Part shown: one piece after another, positions 1 through 11,975 of the stretch | How positions within the stretch are numbered: the first letter of the stretch is position 1 | Layout of the letters: each line of letters starts with the position of its first letter | NCBI GenBank assembly: GCA_027082925.1 | Contig: JALWTD010000017.1 | Span: 124,001-188,000 of the forward strand | Length of the DNA stretch: 64,000 nucleotides | From: Flavobacteriaceae bacterium | GTDB taxonomy: Bacteria > Bacteroidota > Bacteroidia > Flavobacteriales > Flavobacteriaceae | Direction: 5' to 3' | Translations under genes and position numbers: made by a program | Notes under the pieces: model-generated | The model's database searches: none | Told to the model about the DNA's origin: nothing | The model's input: the letters and a program-made list of their open reading frames with translations, nothing else

Positions 1-2
1 TT

Positions 3-395
3 TTTGAAGGAACTACCATAAATGCCGGAAGAGGCACCGAAATGCAATTTCAAGTTTACGGTGCTCCTTTTTTCCCGAAAAGCGACTTTACTTATACACC
101 TAAAGCTAACTTTGGCGCAAAATATCCAAAACACAAAGGAACACTCTGTTACGGTGTAGATTTAAGAAATACGCAACCACTTTATGCTGTTACCGCAGCA
201 TACCTAATAGATGCGTATAAAAAAACACCCAAAACACAATCGTTTTTTGGAAAAACATTTACAGCACATGCCGGAAATACCGATTTAGAAACCCAAATTA
301 AAAACGGAATCTCTGCAAAACAAATTCACCAATCGTGGCAACCCGAAGTTGAAAAATTTAAAAAAATAAGAGCTAAGTATTTGTTGTATGAGTAG
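3..395 (+). CDS. namZ: NamZ/DUF1343 family protein, C-terminal part
   Basis: This is the 3' end of a gene that enters from the left edge; 130 codons are visible. The first residues, FEGTTINAGRGTE followed by FQVYGAPFF, are a hallmark of the DUF1343 family, whose characterised member is the exo-beta-N-acetylmuramidase NamZ of cell-wall recycling. The end, with SWQPEVEKF and KIRAKYLLYE, matches the usual family C terminus, so the protein ends normally at TAG 393-395. The last 94 bp are duplicated perfectly at 7219-7312, on the far side of the CRISPR-Cas module. No terminator follows; a promoter-like sequence for cas1 starts about 20 bp downstream. The family assignment is firm. Activity on muropeptides is inferred from the family. 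Confidence 0.85.
   Translation, partial: FEGTTINAGRGTEMQFQVYGAPFFPKSDFTYTPKANFGAKYPKHKGTLCYGVDLRNTQPLYAVTAAYLIDAYKKTPKTQSFFGKTFTAHAGNTDLETQIKNGISAKQIHQSWQPEVEKFKKIRAKYLLYE
301..394 (+). repeat. Left copy of 94-bp direct repeat flanking the CRISPR-Cas module
   Basis: Positions 301-394 and 7219-7312 are identical at all 94 positions, with an offset of 6,918 bp. This copy is the last 31 codons of the NamZ gene plus two bases of its stop codon. The first mismatch on the right is the third stop-codon base (TAG here, TAA in the other copy), and the first on the left is at 300/7218. The repeats enclose cas1, cas2, the array, cas9 and tracrRNA. Confidence 0.97.
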
Positions 396-415
396 TAAAC
401 ACATTAAAAATTAGA

Positions 416-445
416 TTGTTAAAATAGTTGTTTTTTTCTAATTTG
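416..445 (+). promoter_or_regulatory. Putative promoter of cas1-cas2
   Basis: TTG at 416-418 and TAATTTG at 439-445 are 20 bp apart. This resembles the Bacteroidota -33 TTG / -7 TAnnTTTG pattern, although the -7 box has one spacer base too few. It lies 24 bp before the cas1 start codon and just outside the left 94-bp repeat. Confidence 0.45.
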
Positions 446-468
446 TAGCTTTAATTAAATTTTAAGCT

Positions 469-1353
469 ATGATTAAACGTACTCTTTTTTTTAGTAACAA
501 AGCAAATTTAACTACAAAATTAGAACAGTTAGTTATTAAAACAGAAAACAGATTGGTTACTACCCCCATTGAAGACCTTGGGTTTGTAGTAATAGAACAC
601 CCCGAAACGTACATATCTGTACCTACATTAGCCAAACTATCTGAAGCTAACGTAGCCGTAATTTTTTGCGACACAAAGCATATGCCTTGCAGTATGCTAT
701 TAAATTTAAACAATCATCACATTCAACAAGAATTATTCTCATGTCAAATAAAATCATCTGTTCCATTAAAAAAACAACTCTGGCAACAAACAGTAAAAGC
801 AAAAATTAAAAATCAAGCACATTTATTAAAACTACAAAATAAACCTTATAAAGTTTTAGATTATTACGAATCTAAAGTATTAAGTGGCGATACCGAAAAT
901 ATGGAAGGTGTAGCAGCATCATTTTACTGGAAAAATATTTTTAATTTTAGCTTTAAACGTGAGCGTTACGGCTGTTACCCCAACCAGTTTTTAAATTATG
1001 GATACATTATTTTAAGAGCTGCCGTTGCAAGAGCCCTCTCCGGAAGCGGTTTATTAAGTACGCTAGGTATACACCATCACAACAAATACAATGCATTTTG
1101 TTTAGCAGATGATATTATGGAGCCATATAGACCATTGGTAGATGCTAAAGTAATTGAAATTATAAGTACGTATAATGATGAAGAACTTACAACAAACATA
1201 AAAGCTGAATTATTAAAAGTATTAACAGAAACTGTTTATTTTAAAGACTGTAAAAGCCCTTTAATGGTAGCGTTGAGTAAAACTACAAGTTCTTTACAAC
1301 AATGTTTTAGCGGAAGGGCAAAAAAAATAAACTATCCAAGATTATGGAACTAA
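469..1353 (+). CDS. cas1: CRISPR-associated endonuclease/integrase Cas1, type II
   Basis: The 294-residue protein is the metal-dependent integrase subunit of the Cas1-Cas2 complex that inserts new spacers. The expected active-site residues are visible: a glutamate in ENMEGVAASF (E146), a histidine in GIHHHNKYN (about H203) and an acidic residue in DDIMEPYRP (E218). The length and the FSFKRERYGCYPNQFLNYGY region fit type II-C Cas1 proteins. The stop codon lies inside the start of cas2 (10-bp overlap), so the two form a translationally coupled operon. The start ATG at 469 follows a promoter-like sequence at 416-445. Unusually, cas9 does not precede it; cas9 lies beyond the array on the other strand. 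Confidence 0.95.
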   Translation: MIKRTLFFSNKANLTTKLEQLVIKTENRLVTTPIEDLGFVVIEHPETYISVPTLAKLSEANVAVIFCDTKHMPCSMLLNLNNHHIQQELFSCQIKSSVPLKKQLWQQTVKAKIKNQAHLLKLQNKPYKVLDYYESKVLSGDTENMEGVAASFYWKNIFNFSFKRERYGCYPNQFLNYGYIILRAAVARALSGSGLLSTLGIHHHNKYNAFCLADDIMEPYRPLVDAKVIEIISTYNDEELTTNIKAELLKVLTETVYFKDCKSPLMVALSKTTSSLQQCFSGRAKKINYPRLWN

Positions 1354-1673
1354 ATGCCTATAGAGTTATGTGGTTATTTGTATTTTTTGACCTACCTACG
1401 GAAACTAAAAAAGACCGTAGAAACGCCAGCCAATTTAGAAAAAACCTTATTAAAGATGGTTTTACTATGATGCAATACTCTGTTTATATAAGACATTGCG
1501 CAAGTAGTGAAAGTGCCGATGTACACGAAAAAAGGGTTTTTCATTTATTACCACCTTTGGGTAAGGTTAGTATTTTAAGAATAACAGATAAACAGTTTGG
1601 AAACATTTTAAATTTTTGGGGGAAATTTGAAGCTCCTAAAGAGCCTCAACCTACACAATTAGAATTATTTTAA
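1344..1673 (+). CDS. cas2: CRISPR-associated endoribonuclease-fold protein Cas2
   Basis: The 109-residue ferredoxin-like protein forms the central dimer of the Cas1-Cas2 spacer integration complex. The first strand VMWLFVFFDLP carries the conserved aspartate (D16), followed by KKDRRNASQFRKNL and the second motif GFTMMQYSVYIRH, which is typical of type II Cas2. The ATG at 1344 lies 10 bp before the cas1 stop, which indicates coupling. A hairpin ends the transcript at 1680-1723, before the array. The C-terminal tail, PKEPQPTQLELF, is normal for this subgroup. Confidence 0.95.
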   Translation: MELNAYRVMWLFVFFDLPTETKKDRRNASQFRKNLIKDGFTMMQYSVYIRHCASSESADVHEKRVFHLLPPLGKVSILRITDKQFGNILNFWGKFEAPKEPQPTQLELF

Positions 1674-1679
1674 ACTAAA

Positions 1680-1724
1680 AAAATGCTCCAATTTTGTTGT
1701 AAAACATAAAAAAGGAGCATTTTT
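1680..1724 (+). terminator. Terminator hairpin after cas2
   Basis: AAAATGCTCC (1680-1689) pairs perfectly with GGAGCATTTT (1714-1723) across a 24-nt loop, and the 3' arm ends in T residues. It lies directly after the cas2 stop codon, so it probably ends the cas1-cas2 transcript. It could also stop minus-strand transcripts leaving the array. Confidence 0.65.
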
Positions 1725-1777
1725 GATAACGATATTTTAATTTAAATAACTGATTACCAGAAGCTACCATAGCAACT
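1725..1777. other. Array-adjacent leader-like segment with an 11-bp inverted half repeat
   Basis: The 53 bp between the cas2 terminator and the first repeat are non-coding. ATAACGATATT at 1726-1736 is the exact reverse complement of the first 11 bases of the adjacent CRISPR repeat (AATATCGTTAT, 1778-1788). The two could fold together in RNA reading out of the array on the minus strand. Because the repeats at this end are intact while the far end is degenerate, this may be the side where new spacers are inserted. That role is an inference. Confidence 0.45.
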
Positions 1778-3525
1778 AATATCGTTATTTCTAATCTTTA
1801 ATCAAACCACAACTATAACAGAGTGGACTGTAAATGCTGGAGAAATATCGTTATTTCTAATCTTTAATCAAACCACAACGCTTAATGCTATATTTATAAT
1901 TGTAGTATTAATATCGTTATTTCTAATCTTTAATCAAACCACAACGCTAATCCTAATGAAATGGCAGCGTTAATAAATATCGTTATTTCTAATCTTTAAT
2001 CAAACCACAACGTTACATTAGAAACATCCCAAGAATTAAGGAATATCGTTATTTCTAATCTTTAATCAAACCACAACTTCTTACACTGTTTGTAACCATT
2101 GGTATAAAATATCGTTATTTCTAATCTTTAATCAAACCACAACAACACCTTCGTTGAATAAAAGTTCTTTTGAATATCGTTATTTCTAATCTTTAATCAA
2201 ACCACAACTAAAGTAAGAACCTGAACTACTTCTATAAAAATATCGTTATTTCTAATCTTTAATCAAACCACAACTTAATTTATATAAACGTACGGTTTCT
2301 GATGAATATCGTTATTTCTAATCTTTAATCAAACCACAACATCACCCGTTTCAGAACTCCAACCAACCAAATATCGTTATTTCTAATCTTTAATCAAACC
2401 ACAACAACCAATTCAACATGGCAAACATCGTTAAAAATATCGTTATTTCTAATCTTTAATCAAACCACAACCCTCTCTATCTAATCCTTTTAAATAGTTG
2501 TAATATCGTTATTTCTAATCTTTAATCAAACCACAACTACAACAGATAACAGACTTTACAACGCAAAAATATCGTTATTTCTAATCTTTAATCAAACCAC
2601 AACAAGATAAGTTATCGGAGATATACGCTAATGAATATCGTTATTTCTAATCTTTAATCAAACCACAACTTTTGGGACACGATTTTAAAAGAATCGCCAA
2701 ATATCGTTATTTCTAATCTTTAATCAAACCACAACGCAGAGCAGGTAAAAAAGAAAACGAGTTACAATATCGTTATTTCTAATCTTTAATCAAACCACAA
2801 CTTTGTATTTGAGAGTTTAATATTTTCATAAAATATCGTTATTTCTAATCTTTAATCAAACCACAACTCTCTATAAGCAGCGTATTCCAGAGCCGTTAAT
2901 ATCGTTATTTCTAATCTTTAATCAAACCACAACTGCTTACTTTAGCAGTATAAAAACAAGATAAATATCGTTATTTCTAATCTTTAATCAAACCACAACA
3001 ACCAGTTACTATGGTTAAATCTAAAGGTTAATATCGTTATTTCTAATCTTTAATCAAACCACAACCAATTCTCTTTTTAAAGAGATGTTTTCTGAATATC
3101 GTTATTTCTAATCTTTAATCAAACCACAACATTAAAGCATCTAAACTTTCACGTAATGAAAATATCGTTATTTCTAATCTTTAATCAAACCACAACAGCT
3201 GGGGGTGTATAACTAAAACTAACAGGAATATCGTTATTTCTAATCTTTAATCAAACCACAACCAGTAAAAAACGCATCTATTTTAAAGTACAAATATCGT
3301 TATTTCTAATCTTTAATCAAACCACAACATAAAAATTACGATTCCATCATAGTTGCTAAATATCGTTATTTCTAATCTTTAATCAAACCACAACGCTTAA
3401 AGTTGATGTAAAATTGCACAAGTAATATCGTTATTTCTAATCTTTAATCAAACCACAACAAGGTCGTTCTTTACAGGATGATATTATAAAATATCGTTAT
3501 TTCTAATCTTTAAGGTTACAACCAA
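1778..3525 (-). CRISPR. Type II-C CRISPR array, 27 repeats and 26 spacers
   Basis: Repeats of 36 bp begin AATATCGTTATTTC and end CAAACCACAAC on the + strand. Repeats begin at 1778, 1844, 1910, 1976, 2042, 2108, 2173, 2239, 2305, 2370, 2436, 2502, 2568, 2634, 2700, 2766, 2832, 2898, 2964, 3030, 3095, 3161, 3227, 3293, 3359, 3424 and 3490. The first 26 look identical; the last is degenerate. Spacers are 29-30 bp and all different. The tracrRNA anti-repeat matches the + strand sequence, so crRNAs must come from the minus strand, where each repeat starts GTTGTGGTTTGATTAAAG as in other II-C systems. Transcription therefore runs from the cas9 side towards cas2. The repeat contains no clear TAnnTTTG box, so the promoter position is unknown. 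Confidence 0.99.
3490..3525 (-). repeat. Degenerate terminal CRISPR repeat
   Basis: The first 24 bases match the consensus, but the remaining 12 differ (AAGGTTACAACC where the others have AATCAAACCACAAC). This marks the old end of the array, next to the 3' end of cas9. In crRNA orientation it is the first repeat, and its altered part is the 5' portion that would pair with tracrRNA. Confidence 0.9.
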
Positions 3526-3580
3526 TTAGTTTAATATGTCAAAGACTTGTTTTTTAATTTATTTCTATTTAAAATATACT

Positions 3581-6500
3581 TTACAATCTATTTATTTTAC
3601 CACAAACACTTACTTTTACCTTTATTGGATTAAAGGTTTGCCATCCTGTTTTACCTTCTCCAAAGCTTTGAATTCTGTAATAAAATGGTGCTTCATTGTA
3701 TTTTAACGTTGCTTCTGTATTTCTTCTAAATTCATAAAACATTGAAGAAAGTTTCTGTACCCTAAATAAGTGCTTATTTAATACCTTTTTATTTGGGTTC
3801 TCCCAATTAACTTCATCTTCATGTAGCCCTAATAAAAACATATCATTTATATGTAAGGTTGTAACTATCTCTGCACCATCTTTTGGTAATACATAAACCG
3901 GCATTCCATTCTTTTTTCTCTCTACTACTGTCCAAAAAGTAACAACCTCTTCTTTTAATTTCCCTTCGTTAGTTTTATAAATTAGCACATGGTGGTTACT
4001 TCTTGGGTTTACCCATTGGTTAGTACCACCTAATTCTACAGCTCCTCCTATCGTCTCTTTTATTCTCACTTTTTTAATAGGTACTGGTGCTCCATTTTTA
4101 TTAGGTAAATAAATAGTTGGTTTCCCATTATCTGAAAAGAAAGTGCCTTTTGGGATGTTCTTTCCATTTATATAACCTCCCAACTCTTCAACTCTTTGGT
4201 GTATTAACTTTCTAATAACACTATCTACCACTTTATCTACGTGTTTTAATGTAGTTAAACTTTCAATTGGTTTACGTACATGGAAATGTTTTATTGTACA
4301 ATCTGGAGCCTGTCTTCGTCCATATACGGTTTCTTTATGTAATTGACCGCGTGCAGCAAACCCTTTATTCACATAGGTTTTTCCGTTCACTTTTACCTTA
4401 TGATTACGTATTGTTACTATGTTTTTTCTTTTTTTATGAGATACTAAAATTTCAGAAACAGCTTTTTCTGCATCACTTCTAAAAGACTCCCAAGGTAAAG
4501 GGAATTTTTTTACTTCATAGCTACGCTGATATCTATTCCATTTACTTAACTCTTGTAAATAACTTCTCTTAGTGCAAGCCATCACTAAAGCATCAATTGC
4601 ATGATGTCTATGATCATCTCTATTTTTAGTATCTCCTTCTAAATTTAGAATGTTATTTAAGCCCCATTTTTGACGTAAATTAGCTGTAGACTGACCCGGA
4701 GCAACTTGTATATTATTACAAATTTTACTTAAATAATTTTTTGCTTCTTTACTAATAAACCTAGTATCATTTAACTGTCTACTAATAAAATCATCATCCA
4801 TTTTTTTAGCAACAAATCGTTTATACTTTTGGTATCTGTTAGGGAATTGTTTTGTATCATAAAACAGTGTAAGAGCTCTCGTTTTTACTTCTTCCCATTT
4901 ATCTTCTCCCTGCTCAATATAAAACTCGTATGGTGTTTTGTTTCCTTTGGCTCTATTTTCATCAGCAAAACACAATGTTTTATTCATAAAACTATCATTT
5001 AGTGATCTGCTCCATGGATGAATATGTTCTATTTGTATTTCTCCAGTAAACAATTGAGAAATGCCTATTTCTGCACCCGTAAAAGGACACGTATGCTGAC
5101 ATTCTTCCCAAAGTTTGTATTTTAATATATTTTCGTGTGAAACTACTTGTCCTAACGCATGTAGTTCTAAAATAATCCTATCGTTCTCCCTTTCTAATCG
5201 TTTTTGCTCTCTTCGTTGCCTATTTCTTCCCTCTTTAGATTGTTTTAAATCTCTAGCCATTTCAACTTTTATAATATCAGGCTTACCATAAGTATCAATT
5301 ATTTCATTCACCACTTTTCTTAGCTCAAAAAGTGCTGTTATTACAATTGGGTTTCTAATACCTTGTATTTCTTTATCTGCTTCTGCATTTACAGGTAACC
5401 TATCAGAAATAATTGCTGTTTCAATACTTGCTGAATGATGATACAGTTTGGAAAGTTGTTTGTCGGTAAAACCTTTATTTTCCTTTAAAAAATTTTTTAA
5501 AGACTCATTATAGCCGCCTTTTAAATTATTTCTTACAATATCATACATACTATCTAACACATCTTGTATTTCATGAGTAGAACTTTTTTCCATAGCGTTT
5601 ACAACACCACCCATAGCTACAGCCACATCATACGTGTATCCTTGTTTTAAAAAAGGTAATATGTTATTTATTGCTTTTCTACTTAGAGCGGAATAACCAC
5701 CCTTATTAAGGTGAAATGATGTGATTTTTTCTGCTTGTTCTTCGGTAAAATGCCACTTTTCAATTGCATACTCTTTTAAATTACTCTTGTCTTCGAAAGA
5801 ATATAAAACATGCCAAATATTTTCTTTTTCCTTTTCTGAGAAATCCCACCATTTATTACCAAAGAATTTTTTGTTAGATAAATTACTAATGGTATAAGTA
5901 CCTACAATTTTATCATCGTCTTTGTAGTTAAACTTATACTCTAAGCCAAGTTTGTTTATTACTTTTCGTATTGCTTTAAATGAAGGTTTGTCTTTTGTAA
6001 ATAAAAAACGAGCTACTTTCTTTCGTTCTGTATCACTTAGCTTTTCTCCATTACATTCAACTGTATTAACCCATTGCCAAACTCTAAACTCTTCAAAAGG
6101 TATTGCTGAGATTGGACATCTTGTTTTTTTTGGTTCAAACGTACAATTCCCTATCAGATGCTTTTGAGAACGCAAAGGTCTTTGATGAAAAATAATTCCA
6201 TCCTCGGTATATTTATCTTCTTTTTTTCTACCTCCTAATTTTTGCCTGAGATCCTTTGTCAGTTCAGCATGATATTTGCTTTGATTCTCCCATATTCTTT
6301 CAAACTCATTAATATACATTTGCCGTGTTGTATACCTGTTTCTAATTCGCTCTTTTAATTCTTTAAATGGCTTATTCTCTTTTGGATATATTTCAAATAA
6401 GTATTCTCCCAACGTGTTTCCTTCAATACTTTTCCTTGTTTCATCAATACCTATTTTTCCCTCTTTTGGCTTTCCTTTAAATATTGCGCCATCATCTTTC

Positions 6501-6952
6501 CCTGCACTTCTACTATTACTTTGAAAACCTCTCCTTTGTATCATATGATAAAAAACTCGCCCTAATTCTTCTAAGGTAATCTTACTAGTAAGTGCTTTGG
6601 CTCTAAGTTCATAAGGATTTAGTGCAAACCAAGAAGCTAATTCTTTTTCCGGAAATTTATTGGTATCTCTCCATATCCTATATTGCTCAACTGTAAGAGG
6701 GCACATCTTATTTTCAGATAACGTTCTAATAAGTAAGCGCTTCCGCATTCTTCTCCTGTAAAATTGTCTTCTAGTACCTCTGGCATTCGTCCTAGTCGCA
6801 TTTTTAGATATCTCATTATCTCCTTCTCCTAAATTTTCTACACCTTCTGGGAATATTCTACTTCCCATTCCTAATATTTCACCTTTTGTTTCATCAACCA
6901 AAGCCCATCCAATTGAGTTGGTTCCTAAATCTAATCCTAAAGTTTTTGACAT
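3581..6952 (-). CDS. cas9: CRISPR-associated endonuclease Cas9, type II-C
   Basis: The 1123-residue RNA-guided nuclease cuts DNA matching the crRNA. Domains are complete: RuvC-I with GLDLGTNSIGW (D8), an arginine-rich bridge helix at about 51-75, a recognition lobe to about 530, RuvC-II with IKVEMARDL (E564), an HNH domain with CPFTGAEIG and IEHIHPWSRS (catalytic H643) and N666 in ENRAKGNKTP, RuvC-III with HRHHAIDALV (H784, D787), and a PAM-interacting C-terminal part from about 850. No catalytic residue is missing. The size puts it with compact II-C enzymes. It lies alone on the minus strand, 55 bp from the degenerate end of the array, facing cas1-cas2. The start ATG at 6952 gives the canonical N terminus. 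Weak AT-rich promoter-like sequence lies upstream. Confidence 0.97.
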   Translation of the reverse strand: MSKTLGLDLGTNSIGWALVDETKGEILGMGSRIFPEGVENLGEGDNEISKNATRTNARGTRRQFYRRRMRKRLLIRTLSENKMCPLTVEQYRIWRDTNKFPEKELASWFALNPYELRAKALTSKITLEELGRVFYHMIQRRGFQSNSRSAGKDDGAIFKGKPKEGKIGIDETRKSIEGNTLGEYLFEIYPKENKPFKELKERIRNRYTTRQMYINEFERIWENQSKYHAELTKDLRQKLGGRKKEDKYTEDGIIFHQRPLRSQKHLIGNCTFEPKKTRCPISAIPFEEFRVWQWVNTVECNGEKLSDTERKKVARFLFTKDKPSFKAIRKVINKLGLEYKFNYKDDDKIVGTYTISNLSNKKFFGNKWWDFSEKEKENIWHVLYSFEDKSNLKEYAIEKWHFTEEQAEKITSFHLNKGGYSALSRKAINNILPFLKQGYTYDVAVAMGGVVNAMEKSSTHEIQDVLDSMYDIVRNNLKGGYNESLKNFLKENKGFTDKQLSKLYHHSASIETAIISDRLPVNAEADKEIQGIRNPIVITALFELRKVVNEIIDTYGKPDIIKVEMARDLKQSKEGRNRQRREQKRLERENDRIILELHALGQVVSHENILKYKLWEECQHTCPFTGAEIGISQLFTGEIQIEHIHPWSRSLNDSFMNKTLCFADENRAKGNKTPYEFYIEQGEDKWEEVKTRALTLFYDTKQFPNRYQKYKRFVAKKMDDDFISRQLNDTRFISKEAKNYLSKICNNIQVAPGQSTANLRQKWGLNNILNLEGDTKNRDDHRHHAIDALVMACTKRSYLQELSKWNRYQRSYEVKKFPLPWESFRSDAEKAVSEILVSHKKRKNIVTIRNHKVKVNGKTYVNKGFAARGQLHKETVYGRRQAPDCTIKHFHVRKPIESLTTLKHVDKVVDSVIRKLIHQRVEELGGYINGKNIPKGTFFSDNGKPTIYLPNKNGAPVPIKKVRIKETIGGAVELGGTNQWVNPRSNHHVLIYKTNEGKLKEEVVTFWTVVERKKNGMPVYVLPKDGAEIVTTLHINDMFLLGLHEDEVNWENPNKKVLNKHLFRVQKLSSMFYEFRRNTEATLKYNEAPFYYRIQSFGEGKTGWQTFNPIKVKVSVCGKINRL

Positions 6953-7092
6953 AATTATTCTGTTTTTAGCAATTTTTCTTTTAAAAAAGAAACTGACTAA
7001 AAGTAAGAATTTTAAAAAAAGGAGAAAAGAAATTTTCTAATTTAGAATGAATTAAAATTAATCAAAATGTTTTTTCAAATTAAAAAACATGA

Positions 7093-7100
7093 TATATTTG
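7093..7100 (+). promoter_or_regulatory. -7 promoter box of the tracrRNA
   Basis: TATATTTG is an exact match to the Bacteroidota -7 consensus TAnnTTTG. It predicts a transcript start near 7105, about 13 nt before the anti-repeat. A clear -33 TTG is not present; a T-rich stretch occupies 7070-7075. Confidence 0.65.
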
Positions 7101-7104
7101 GTGT

Positions 7105-7198
7105 GTGAAAAAAATTAATCTAATCTTTAATCTTATCACAATAAGGCTATATGCCGTAGATGAAAATCTTGAGTCCTGCTTCCGGTAGGACTTTTTTT
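7105..7198 (+). ncRNA. tracrRNA of the type II-C system
   Basis: TCTAATCTTTAATC (7119-7132) is identical to the + strand of the CRISPR repeat. After four mostly mismatched bases, CACAA (7137-7141) matches again, so this RNA can pair with the crRNA repeat in two blocks separated by a bulge, as tracrRNAs do. CAATAAGGC with a small GGC/GCC stem follows, as in other II-C tracrRNAs. The 3' end is an intrinsic terminator: AGTCCT (7172-7177) pairs with AGGACT (7187-7192), followed by seven T residues (7192-7198). It is transcribed divergently from cas9. Exact 5' and 3' ends are estimates. Confidence 0.92.
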
Positions 7199-7218
7199 AT
7201 AGATTTATTTTAACACAT

Positions 7219-7312
7219 AAAACGGAATCTCTGCAAAACAAATTCACCAATCGTGGCAACCCGAAGTTGAAAAATTTAAAAAAATAAGAGCTAAGTATTT
7301 GTTGTATGAGTA
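7219..7312 (+). repeat. Right copy of the 94-bp direct repeat (NamZ 3' end)
   Basis: This is a perfect copy of 301-394, in the same orientation, starting 20 bp after the tracrRNA terminator. It has no start codon or upstream coding sequence, so it is a gene-end remnant. It ends with TAA (7311-7313) where the left copy has TAG. A hairpin follows at 7319-7346. Together with the left copy it brackets the CRISPR-Cas module. Confidence 0.97.
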
Positions 7313-7318
7313 AAACCT

Positions 7319-7346
7319 AGTTGTTACGGGAATCTCGTAAACAACT
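7319..7346 (+). terminator. Hairpin downstream of the right repeat copy
   Basis: AGTTGTTACG (7319-7328) pairs with CGTAAACAACT (7336-7346) with one bulged base. No strong T run follows, so termination is uncertain. Lying 6 bp after the duplicated NamZ stop codon, it could be the original terminator of that gene, now separated from the full-length copy. Confidence 0.4.
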
Positions 7347-7464: not shown

Positions 7465-8052
7465 ATGAAACAACAACCTTTTGAGGCTGCTCAATTTTAT
7501 CATGTATTTAACAGAGGAAATAACAGGGAAAACATATTTAAAACAACAGATAATTATAGTTATTTCTTAAATTTAGTAAAAAAATACTTGCTATCAATTT
7601 GTGATATTTACAGCTATTGTTTACTTCCTAATCATTTTCATTTTATTATTAGAATTAAAGATTTTAAGGAACTTCCGGAGAATTTTACAAGTGGTAAAAC
7701 AAAGCTACATCAACCTTTTTCAAATTTATTTAACGCTTACACTAAAGCAATTAATAAGAAACATAAACGAACGGGGAGTTTGTTTCAAGAACATTTAAAA
7801 CGTATTAAAATTACTAATGAAGAATATTTACGTCATTTAATTGTTTATGTAAATACGAACTCAACACATCATGCTATTTCAAATTTTAAGGAGTATAAAT
7901 ATGCATCGTACCTAAGTTTAATTTCAGAAAAAACAAGTTTATTAAAAAGAAAAGAAGTTCTAAACCTTTTTAATGATGTTGAAAATTTTAAGTATGTACT
8001 TAACGTGAAAAAGCTAAATATTGAGGCTTTAAATGAGTACTTATTAGAATAA
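7465..8052 (+). CDS. RAYT-type transposase (IS200-like Y1/HUH family)
   Basis: The 195-residue protein belongs to the REP-associated tyrosine transposases, which nick and join single-stranded DNA at palindromes. The HUH metal-binding pair is in PNHFHFIIR (H57, H59). The region YLRHLIVYVNTNS corresponds to the conserved Y-[IV]-x-x-N motif of this family, so Y128 is the candidate nucleophile. KKHKRTGSLFQEHLKRI is also a family signature. There is no TnpB partner and no insertion-sequence ends. Palindromes on both sides (7370-7394, 8084-8116, 8143-8168) share a core, as expected for a RAYT and its cognate REP elements. Length and frame are intact, so it is probably functional. Confidence 0.88.
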   Translation: MKQQPFEAAQFYHVFNRGNNRENIFKTTDNYSYFLNLVKKYLLSICDIYSYCLLPNHFHFIIRIKDFKELPENFTSGKTKLHQPFSNLFNAYTKAINKKHKRTGSLFQEHLKRIKITNEEYLRHLIVYVNTNSTHHAISNFKEYKYASYLSLISEKTSLLKRKEVLNLFNDVENFKYVLNVKKLNIEALNEYLLE

Positions 8053-10586: not shown

Positions 10587-11975
10587 ATGAAATACGACAT
10601 CATTATTATAGGTAGTGGTCCCGGAGGATACGTTACGGCAATTAGAGCTTCGCAATTAGGGTTTAAAGTAGCTGTAGTTGAAAGAGAAAACTTAGGTGGT
10701 ATTTGTTTAAACTGGGGGTGTATTCCTACCAAAGCACTTTTAAAAAGTGCACAAGTTTACGACTATTTAAAACATGTAGATGAATACGGATTAAAAGCCG
10801 AAGCTATTGATAAAGATTTTGAAGCTGTTATAAAACGAAGTAGAAATGTCGCCGAAGGAATGAGTAAAGGTGTTCAATTTTTGATGAAAAAAAATAAAAT
10901 TGATGTGATTAACGGCTTCGGAAAAATAAAAACCGGTAAAAAAGTAGCTGTAACCGATGCTGAAGGCAATACTACCGACTATGAAGCAAACCACATTATT
11001 ATTGCAACCGGTGCGCGTTCTAGAGAATTACCAAACTTACCACAAGACGGCGAAAAAGTAATAGGCTACCGCCAAGCAATGACCTTGCCTAAGCAACCTA
11101 AAAAAATGATTGTGGTGGGTTCTGGTGCTATTGGTGTAGAATTTGCTCACTTTTACAACGCTATGGGAACCGAAGTAACTATTGTTGAATTTATGCCAAA
11201 TGTAGTGCCTCTTGAAGATGTAGATGTTTCAAAACAATTTGCACGTTCTCTTAAAAAAGCAGGAATTAAGGTAATGACAAACTCATCGGTAGAGTCTGTA
11301 GATACTTCCGGAGAAGGTGTTAAAGCCGTTGTGAAAACAAAAAAAGGAGAAGAAATTTTAGAAGCCGATATTTTACTTTCTGCCGTAGGAATTAAATCGA
11401 ATATCGAAAATATTGGACTTGAAGATGTTGGAATTGTTACCGATAGAGATAAAATTTTGGTAAACGACTTTTATCAAACCAATATTCCGGGTTATTATGC
11501 CATTGGCGATGTAGTACCTGGTCCGGCATTGGCACACGTAGCTTCTGCCGAAGGTATTACCTGCGTAGAGAAAATTGCAGGGCTAACTACCGAAAAAATA
11601 GATTACGGAAACATTCCGGGTTGTACATATGCAACTCCTGAAATAGCAAGTGTTGGACTTACTGAAGCGAAGGCAAAAGAACAAGGGTACGATTTAAAAA
11701 TAGGCAAATTCCCGTTTTCTGCCTCAGGTAAAGCAAAAGCTGCAGGTACACCTGACGGATTTGTAAAAGTGATATTTGATGCTAAATACGGAGAATGGCT
11801 TGGGTGTCATATGATAGGCGCAGGAGTTACCGATATGATTGCCGAAGCTGTTGTAGCCAGAAAATTAGAAACTACCGGGCACGAAATTTTAAAATCTATT
11901 CATCCGCACCCAACAATGAGTGAAGCTGTAATGGAAGCCGTGGCTGATGCGTATGATGAAGTAATTCACCTCTAA
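10587..11975 (+). CDS. lpdA: Dihydrolipoyl dehydrogenase (E3)
   Basis: The 462-residue FAD enzyme reoxidises dihydrolipoamide in the pyruvate and 2-oxoglutarate dehydrogenase complexes, using NAD+. The FAD-binding GSGPGGYVTAIRA lies at 9-21, the redox-active disulfide in GGICLNWGCIP is C40/C45, the NAD-binding site is VVGSGAIGVEFA near 178, and the C-terminal His-Glu pair is in HPHPTMSEAV. No lipoyl domain is fused. A strong intrinsic terminator follows at 11999-12025. Partner E1 and E2 genes are not in the window. Confidence 0.96.
   Translation: MKYDIIIIGSGPGGYVTAIRASQLGFKVAVVERENLGGICLNWGCIPTKALLKSAQVYDYLKHVDEYGLKAEAIDKDFEAVIKRSRNVAEGMSKGVQFLMKKNKIDVINGFGKIKTGKKVAVTDAEGNTTDYEANHIIIATGARSRELPNLPQDGEKVIGYRQAMTLPKQPKKMIVVGSGAIGVEFAHFYNAMGTEVTIVEFMPNVVPLEDVDVSKQFARSLKKAGIKVMTNSSVESVDTSGEGVKAVVKTKKGEEILEADILLSAVGIKSNIENIGLEDVGIVTDRDKILVNDFYQTNIPGYYAIGDVVPGPALAHVASAEGITCVEKIAGLTTEKIDYGNIPGCTYATPEIASVGLTEAKAKEQGYDLKIGKFPFSASGKAKAAGTPDGFVKVIFDAKYGEWLGCHMIGAGVTDMIAEAVVARKLETTGHEILKSIHPHPTMSEAVMEAVADAYDEVIHL

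Follow-up and report, generated by a model that had tools for sequence, protein, structure and literature searches.

A type II-C-like CRISPR-Cas (clustered regularly interspaced short palindromic repeats and associated genes) module was found enclosed by two identical 94-bp direct repeats of the 3' end of its neighbour gene namZ. The module lies in a 64,000-nucleotide stretch of a Lutibacter genome (hereafter the window; Flavobacteriaceae bacterium, assembly GCA_027082925.1, contig JALWTD010000017.1, positions 124,001 to 188,000). We consider, with a probability of roughly one in two, that the repeats are the scar of homologous recombination anchored in the neighbour gene and not the product of a dedicated integrase. 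Beside the repeat itself, the same layout was observed in two more species, the identity between the repeat copies is patchy in both of these, and a comparable duplication surrounds a different cargo in another Lutibacter genome. Genomes and fetched loci are designated below by G- and L-numbers, respectively, the window genome being G000 (L003:10395 corresponds to window position 395).

The two copies are identical at 94 of 94 positions and lie in the same orientation, as the original prediction from the sequence had described, with 6918 bp from start to start. They form the sole pair of exact direct repeats of at least 40 bp in the window outside the CRISPR array, and the 94-bp sequence was matched at two places alone in the 2.47-Mb draft genome. 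The left copy corresponds to the terminal part of the NamZ_C domain (PF20732) and is terminated by TAG, and the right copy is a namZ tail without the gene body, in frame to TAA. Since the stop codons differ, the bases adjoining the copies differ as well, and the adjacent bases are unlike at both ends. The draft state of the genome (21 contigs) could point to an artefact of assembly, but this explanation is hardly credible given the differing bases on both sides of the copies and the same layout in an independent assembly of another species. At 30.2%, the GC content of the enclosed part is close to that of the window (32.2%).

The enclosed unit holds cas1, cas2, an array, cas9 and a tracrRNA-like (trans-activating CRISPR RNA) sequence, in agreement with the original prediction; the genes were supported by Pfam and the tracrRNA by its sequence, with no Rfam match at the gathering score. 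The predicted module thus carries the parts that we take to define type II-C, namely cas1, cas2, a cas9 with HNH and RuvC domains, an array and a putative tracrRNA. A partial array repeat could be read from the sequence on the cas9 side of the array. Counting the T-run, the terminator of the tracrRNA-like sequence is separated from the right copy by about 20 bp, also as first described. Besides cas1, cas2 and cas9, the list of open reading frames (ORFs) contains none of the size of an integrase or transposase within the unit, which agrees with the earlier claim that no such enzyme lies inside; the other enclosed ORFs, taken from the list with no domain search, are of 83 aa or less and mostly overlap the three cas genes. 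By the same list, there is no space for more cas genes such as csn2 or cas4. In several related modules, though not in the window, an ORF for a GIY-YIG nuclease is located between the array and cas9 (L034:6728-7057, PF01541 by Pfam; L054, by clustering; L085:13438-13761, by eye).

Table. Features of the window at and around the repeat-enclosed module
Feature	Position	Strand	Basis
3' part of namZ (exo-beta-N-acetylmuramidase NamZ, C-terminal domain)	1..395	+	PF20732, E 1.5e-27; 410-aa ORF starting upstream of the window
Left copy of the 94-bp direct repeat (namZ 3' end)	301..394	+	repeat search
cas1	469..1353	+	Pfam PF01867
cas2	1344..1673	+	Pfam PF09827
CRISPR array	1778..3513	not assigned	26 full 36-bp repeats, ~30-bp spacers, 65/66-bp spacing
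cas9, 1123 aa, type II-C-like	3581..6952	-	RuvC_III, HNH_4 and Cas9_a by Pfam
tracrRNA-like sequence	7119..7199	+	anti-repeat 7119-7146, terminator hairpin 7171-7193, T-run
Right copy of the 94-bp direct repeat, in frame to TAA	7219..7312	+	repeat search
IS200/RAYT-like ORF, 195 aa, outside the enclosed unit	7465..8052	+	Y1_Tnp, E 0.0021, below the Pfam cut-off

The namZ site was compared within a sample of 38 Lutibacter genomes, for which 33 namZ loci were fetched, several of them on contigs ending less than 2 kb from namZ. A Cas2 match was detected in 14 of the 38 genomes and reached 84% or more in 11. The cas1 gene adjoins namZ in five of these 11 (G000, G011, G016, G028 and G019; 5/38 of the genus) and lies elsewhere or on namZ-free contigs in the remaining six. 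The right end was resolved for four namZ-site modules, including that of G028, which is split across two contigs. A second tail follows the module in G000 and G016 and is missing from G011 (L. profundi) and G028 (Lutibacter sp. B1), both of which have a CxxCxxCC gene within ~110 bp after the tracrRNA terminator. In G016, a second Lutibacter species, the layout is the same and the 94-bp copies are 88% identical (83/94). Its second tail starts at the same namZ position as that of G000, as delimited by the repeat finder, the edge being uncertain by a few bases because of an A-rich stretch. Two irregular cas loci were seen in the same genus: in G019 (L064), cas1 is broken after ~175 residues and after it, at the end of the contig, comes an ORF judged transposase-like by eye, and in G020 (L057:7784-10184), cas1 and cas2 are separated by a gap of ~1.2 kb rather than overlapping.

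The DNA downstream of namZ is variable among the 33 loci, with a CAP gene in 12 and M16 peptidase pairs, transporters and others elsewhere. No second namZ tail was detected in the other same-genus genomes compared. A second namZ match in G006 proved to be the same gene running on in another frame; at this locus (L062), two overlapping frames divide namZ close to its 3' end. The exact empty site expected by the original prediction, namZ followed directly by position 7313 onward, was not found among the Lutibacter loci examined; the RAYT-like ORF beyond the right copy matched none of these other loci.

The layout recurs with a different gene in another genus. In Aequorivita MAG.75 (G357, L085), the module is located between two copies, ~90-94 bp in length, of the 3' end of a gene for a 123-aa protein, of which the repeat represents the last ~30 codons. 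This repeat gave two strong matches in the genome, both flanking the module, and two others of just 16 and 23 nt. The 123-aa gene is intact in A. todarodis (G380), ~370 bp upstream of cas1, where the right copy was not detected, and it is next to an SNase-like gene in G379, G383 and G369 (SNase by Pfam in G383). A close Cas1 (at least 88%) was present in 5 of 28 Aequorivita genomes. G374 has a shorter tail after the tracrRNA and no left tail, with yidD ~90 bp from cas1; the module of G361 is at a different place, and the contig of G373 shows no tail. The earlier view of the module as a unit bounded by the 3' end of the gene before it is supported, and the layout is found again in G016 and, with another gene, in G357.

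Based on these states, we can propose how the repeats arose. Incoming chromosomal DNA with the order namZ-cas1-cas2-array-cas9-tracrRNA would pair at the left with namZ of the recipient, and its right side would join, without long homology, 94 bp upstream of the recipient namZ end. The outcome would be a namZ completed by the incoming tail, the module, the displaced tail of the recipient and the old downstream DNA. Later gene conversion between the tails may keep the copies alike, and the tails could in principle recombine to delete the module. The direction of transfer, the one-sided join and the deletion are the parts that we infer. In homology-facilitated illegitimate recombination, partly homologous incoming DNA gives duplications or insertions without a transposase. 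The states that match this explanation are the donor-like one, a gene-module arrangement without the second tail, which occurs in other species (G011, G028 and G380), and that with the right copy (G000, G016, G357 and, shorter, G374).

The distribution of differences between copies points to exchange between them in G357 and G016. The copies of G357 form a sharp mosaic, 64 bp being identical and followed by 13 differences in the last 30 bp; a run of this length was reached by none of 20,000 random placements of the differences, and it is what a crossover or conversion with its end point within the tail would produce. In G016, the 11 differences leave an identical run of 43 bp in the middle of the repeat (P 0.0075 under random placement). 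For comparison, 205 between-species tail pairs with at least 10 differences, taken from 21 of the 33 namZ loci, gave a longest run of 35. Such patchiness is not visible in the window pair, whose copies are identical.

A comparable duplication was observed around a cargo other than CRISPR-Cas. In G020 (Lutibacter MAG13, L065:5319-11012), an M16 peptidase pair is located between two copies of the CAP region, with no CRISPR in the interval, and this cargo occupies the same interval as the namZ-site modules. The CAP-region copies are ~1.3 kb, with an exact core of 394 bp and 80-88% identity further out. In the window, G016 and G020, the repeats are made of resident neighbour DNA, as is characteristic of duplicative insertion.

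The effector and adaptation genes of the namZ-site modules gave different trees. Among 19 chosen Cas9s, those from the namZ site (L003, L034, L054 and L222) fell into different supported clades, in which G000 is set apart, G016 groups with G020, G011 with NORP37, and G028 with Confluentibacter and others. Among 23 chosen Cas1s, 11 rows of the genus formed one group, also taking in Aequorivita (92/96), and the Cas1 of NORP37, a record titled Lutibacter, fell outside it. The different clades of the Cas9s together with the single group of the Cas1s show that parts of the locus were exchanged by recombination, and the namZ site holds resident adaptation genes with exchanged effectors.

Several observations weigh against this explanation by one-sided recombination. 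The copies of G000 and G016 share their start in namZ, which independent one-sided joins would rarely do; the two copies of G357 likewise have a common start, even with the gene body missing; and the repeat lengths in the two genera (94 and ~90-94 bp) are oddly similar. For the window pair to be fully identical, the donor must have been almost the same strain, or conversion must have followed. In addition, the right copy of G016 matches the tails of G018 and G012 at 80/96 and 79/96 positions, hardly fewer than the 83/96 at which it matches its own left copy.

That the copies of G000 and G016 start alike favours either a single old event followed by concerted evolution or an attachment site with a defined position. 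In the former case, both tails would have been present at namZ in the ancestor of G000 and G016 and kept alike within each species, the others having lost the right copy. We regard this as possible rather than probable. The copies are closer within species (94/94 in G000, 83/94 in G016) than the left copies are between the two species (78/96), the identity in G016 is concentrated in the middle of the repeat as described above, and the namZ-site Cas1s look old in the genus. However, G011 and G028 share the site without the right copy, the spacer between the terminator and the right copy differs (~20 bp in G000, ~100 bp in G016) as does the DNA beyond, and tails of other species come nearly as close to the G016 right copy as its own left copy does. 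The ArgS tree of 32 genomes, whose base is unresolved, leaves the closeness of G000 and G016 undecided.

In the latter case, the gene 3' end would be an attachment site for site-specific integration, the element bringing a ~94-bp copy that completes the gene and the recombinase acting in trans or having been lost. This would resemble integrase-less CIME-like islands, whose att-like repeats are recognised by an integrase encoded elsewhere. As in integrase-type islands, the direct repeats are derived from the 3' end of the target gene, which is completed, and the edge is defined and the same in two Lutibacter species; the similar repeat length in Aequorivita also fits. Furthermore, G364 and G372, both without a Cas1 match, carry a single tail at the same site, between yidD and the next gene, and G378 and G358 have neither tail nor module there. 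The junction base between tail and yidD in G364 and G372 is, however, unlike that in G357, so these two genomes fit module loss without proving it and may represent separate deletions. The intact tail gene is located 6-8 kb from yidD in G379 and G369, so that a simple deletion could also explain the single tails, and precise excision was downgraded as a proof.

The ORF list shows no recombinase inside the unit, and a search for tyrosine recombinases (PF00589) detected three in the genome, none of them on the window contig C17; no candidate integrase was linked to the repeat. The IS200/RAYT-like ORF, which had escaped the original prediction, is ~150 bp beyond the right copy and outside the unit. 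Site-specific integration would also have to deal with two different genes as targets, with the missing right copy in two of the four resolved Lutibacter modules and with the comparable duplication around CRISPR-free cargo in G020. We therefore consider it unlikely; it is possible but unneeded to explain the repeats. The original prediction had taken the duplication as the sign of such integration, and this part is not borne out; in other parts the prediction is supported, by the unit character of the module, the recurrence of the layout and the patchy identity. Palindromes of the AGACCTAACAGGTTT kind follow the IS200/RAYT-like ORF (window 7465-8052), and a palindrome TTTACGG-N-CCGTAAA was seen by eye near the ends of several modules (window 7320-7345, L085, L142, L234 and L236).

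Other means of movement were considered in parallel. Integration driven by Cas1, as in a casposon, was rejected: no inverted repeat of at least 20 nt pairs the two ends of the unit, no ORF of PolB size is present, and the duplication is 94 bp. A plasmid, phage or viral vehicle was likewise set aside: none of the 16 plasmid and 4 phage records matched had a Cas1 of at least 60% identity, and one viral contig was found at 50%, in a search that detects close relatives only. A ComEC-family gene is present in the genome but also in 10 of 14 control genomes, and its common occurrence makes it weak support for recombination.

The right copy might also be what is left of a tandem duplication, or of another namZ, after trimming by deletion to 94 bp. 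Some distant relatives (G044 and G057) do have two adjacent namZ genes, and states with one module next to another do occur, as shown by the remnant of a cas9 start upstream of cas1 in Aequorivita G361. This origin is nevertheless quite improbable, since precise deletions with the same end point would be required in two species, and no longer second copy was found in the 33 Lutibacter namZ loci, several of these with contigs ending short of 2 kb from the gene. The G361 region (L235, ~11250-11900) holds, as the remnant of a second module, a further cas9 start (MKRILGLDLGTN, by eye) together with a different kind of tracrRNA-like stretch.

For a wider survey, the flanks of 51 loci with both Cas9 and Cas1 were compared, 49 of which were different (L126 repeats L034, and L094 repeats L057). 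A recognised pair of gene ends was present in three only, the window, G016 and G357. The check proposed with the original prediction, a search for the repeats around other CRISPR-Cas loci, thus yielded G016 and, with another gene, G357, but the idea that II-C modules of flavobacteria generally lie between repeated gene ends was rejected. Flank matches without demonstrated gene-end status were detected in nine loci (L054, L080, L107, L108, L111, L116, L138, L142 and L147), five of which (L107, L111, L116, L142 and L147) were inspected by eye. The matches of L107 and L116 look palindromic, and that of L142 is a short palindrome. L111 (Polaribacter marinus) has direct repeats at 9515-9750/20761-20999 (239 bp, 91%), the far copy being ~3.9 kb beyond cas1, and L147 (a Nitrospirae metagenome-assembled genome) at 9385-9456/15059-15130 (72 bp, 93%), with the far copy ~1.5 kb beyond cas1.

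A protein-level search for tails of the upstream gene after the tracrRNA was clear for the window and G016 only; for G357, a different upstream ORF was used in this test. Weak matches (E 0.004-0.03) were obtained at L074, L101 and L141. Separately, coding-like DNA after the tracrRNA in L087, L093 and L128 (two Cellulophaga genomes and isolate 2-697) matches a region upstream of cas1 in Arenibacter L082 that holds a 302-aa ORF; one and the same gene thus seems to lie on one side of the module in the former and on the other side in Arenibacter.

A more general reading is that integrase-less modules of Flavobacteriia travel as cassettes, with the terminal ~90 bp of the gene preceding cas1 serving as a portable recombination handle that would complete the gene at each insertion, leave a second tail after the terminator, and allow precise loss of the module and swapping of its cas9 half. 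The single tails of Aequorivita G364 and G372 would then be examples of precise loss. We consider this extension rather doubtful.

The window module bears on the spread between chromosomes of CRISPR-Cas loci that lack their own recombinase: its acceptor gene, edge and scar can all be recognised, and a similar scar involves a second gene in another genus. At the Lutibacter site, the exchanged cas9 next to resident cas1-cas2 points to recombination as one way in which effectors are exchanged.

Direct repeats around a cas operon are already known from Marinomonas mediterranea MMB-1, in which the whole type III-B operon is located between direct repeats of ~200 bp, reminiscent of integration scars, and two related strains are without the operon (Silas et al. 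2017, PMC5576922). The window module resembles it in that the cas genes are enclosed by direct repeats. It differs in CRISPR type, in that the repeat is 94 bp of the neighbour gene, the passages on MMB-1 being silent about a gene 3' end, and in that a like layout recurs in other species. Among open-licence papers, we found none describing a type II-C module flanked by a duplicated gene 3' end. In Vibrio, genomic islands bearing an integrase carry CRISPR-Cas between attL and attR at a chromosomal site (PMC6360697); these islands hold the integrase and other cargo, whereas the unit described here holds CRISPR-Cas parts only. In pneumococcus, transformation yields duplications of ~100-900 kb without a transposase (PMC3784515), a process described in other bacteria and, in that account, not for CRISPR modules or Lutibacter. 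Terminal inverted repeats, PolB and target duplications of 1-27 nt (median 15) are features of casposons, three of which are targeted to a protein gene's 3' region, with direct repeats outside (PMC4046053). The window module shares with them Cas1, the 3' region of a gene and the outer direct repeats, in contrast to the terminal inverted repeats, PolB and short duplication, which it lacks.

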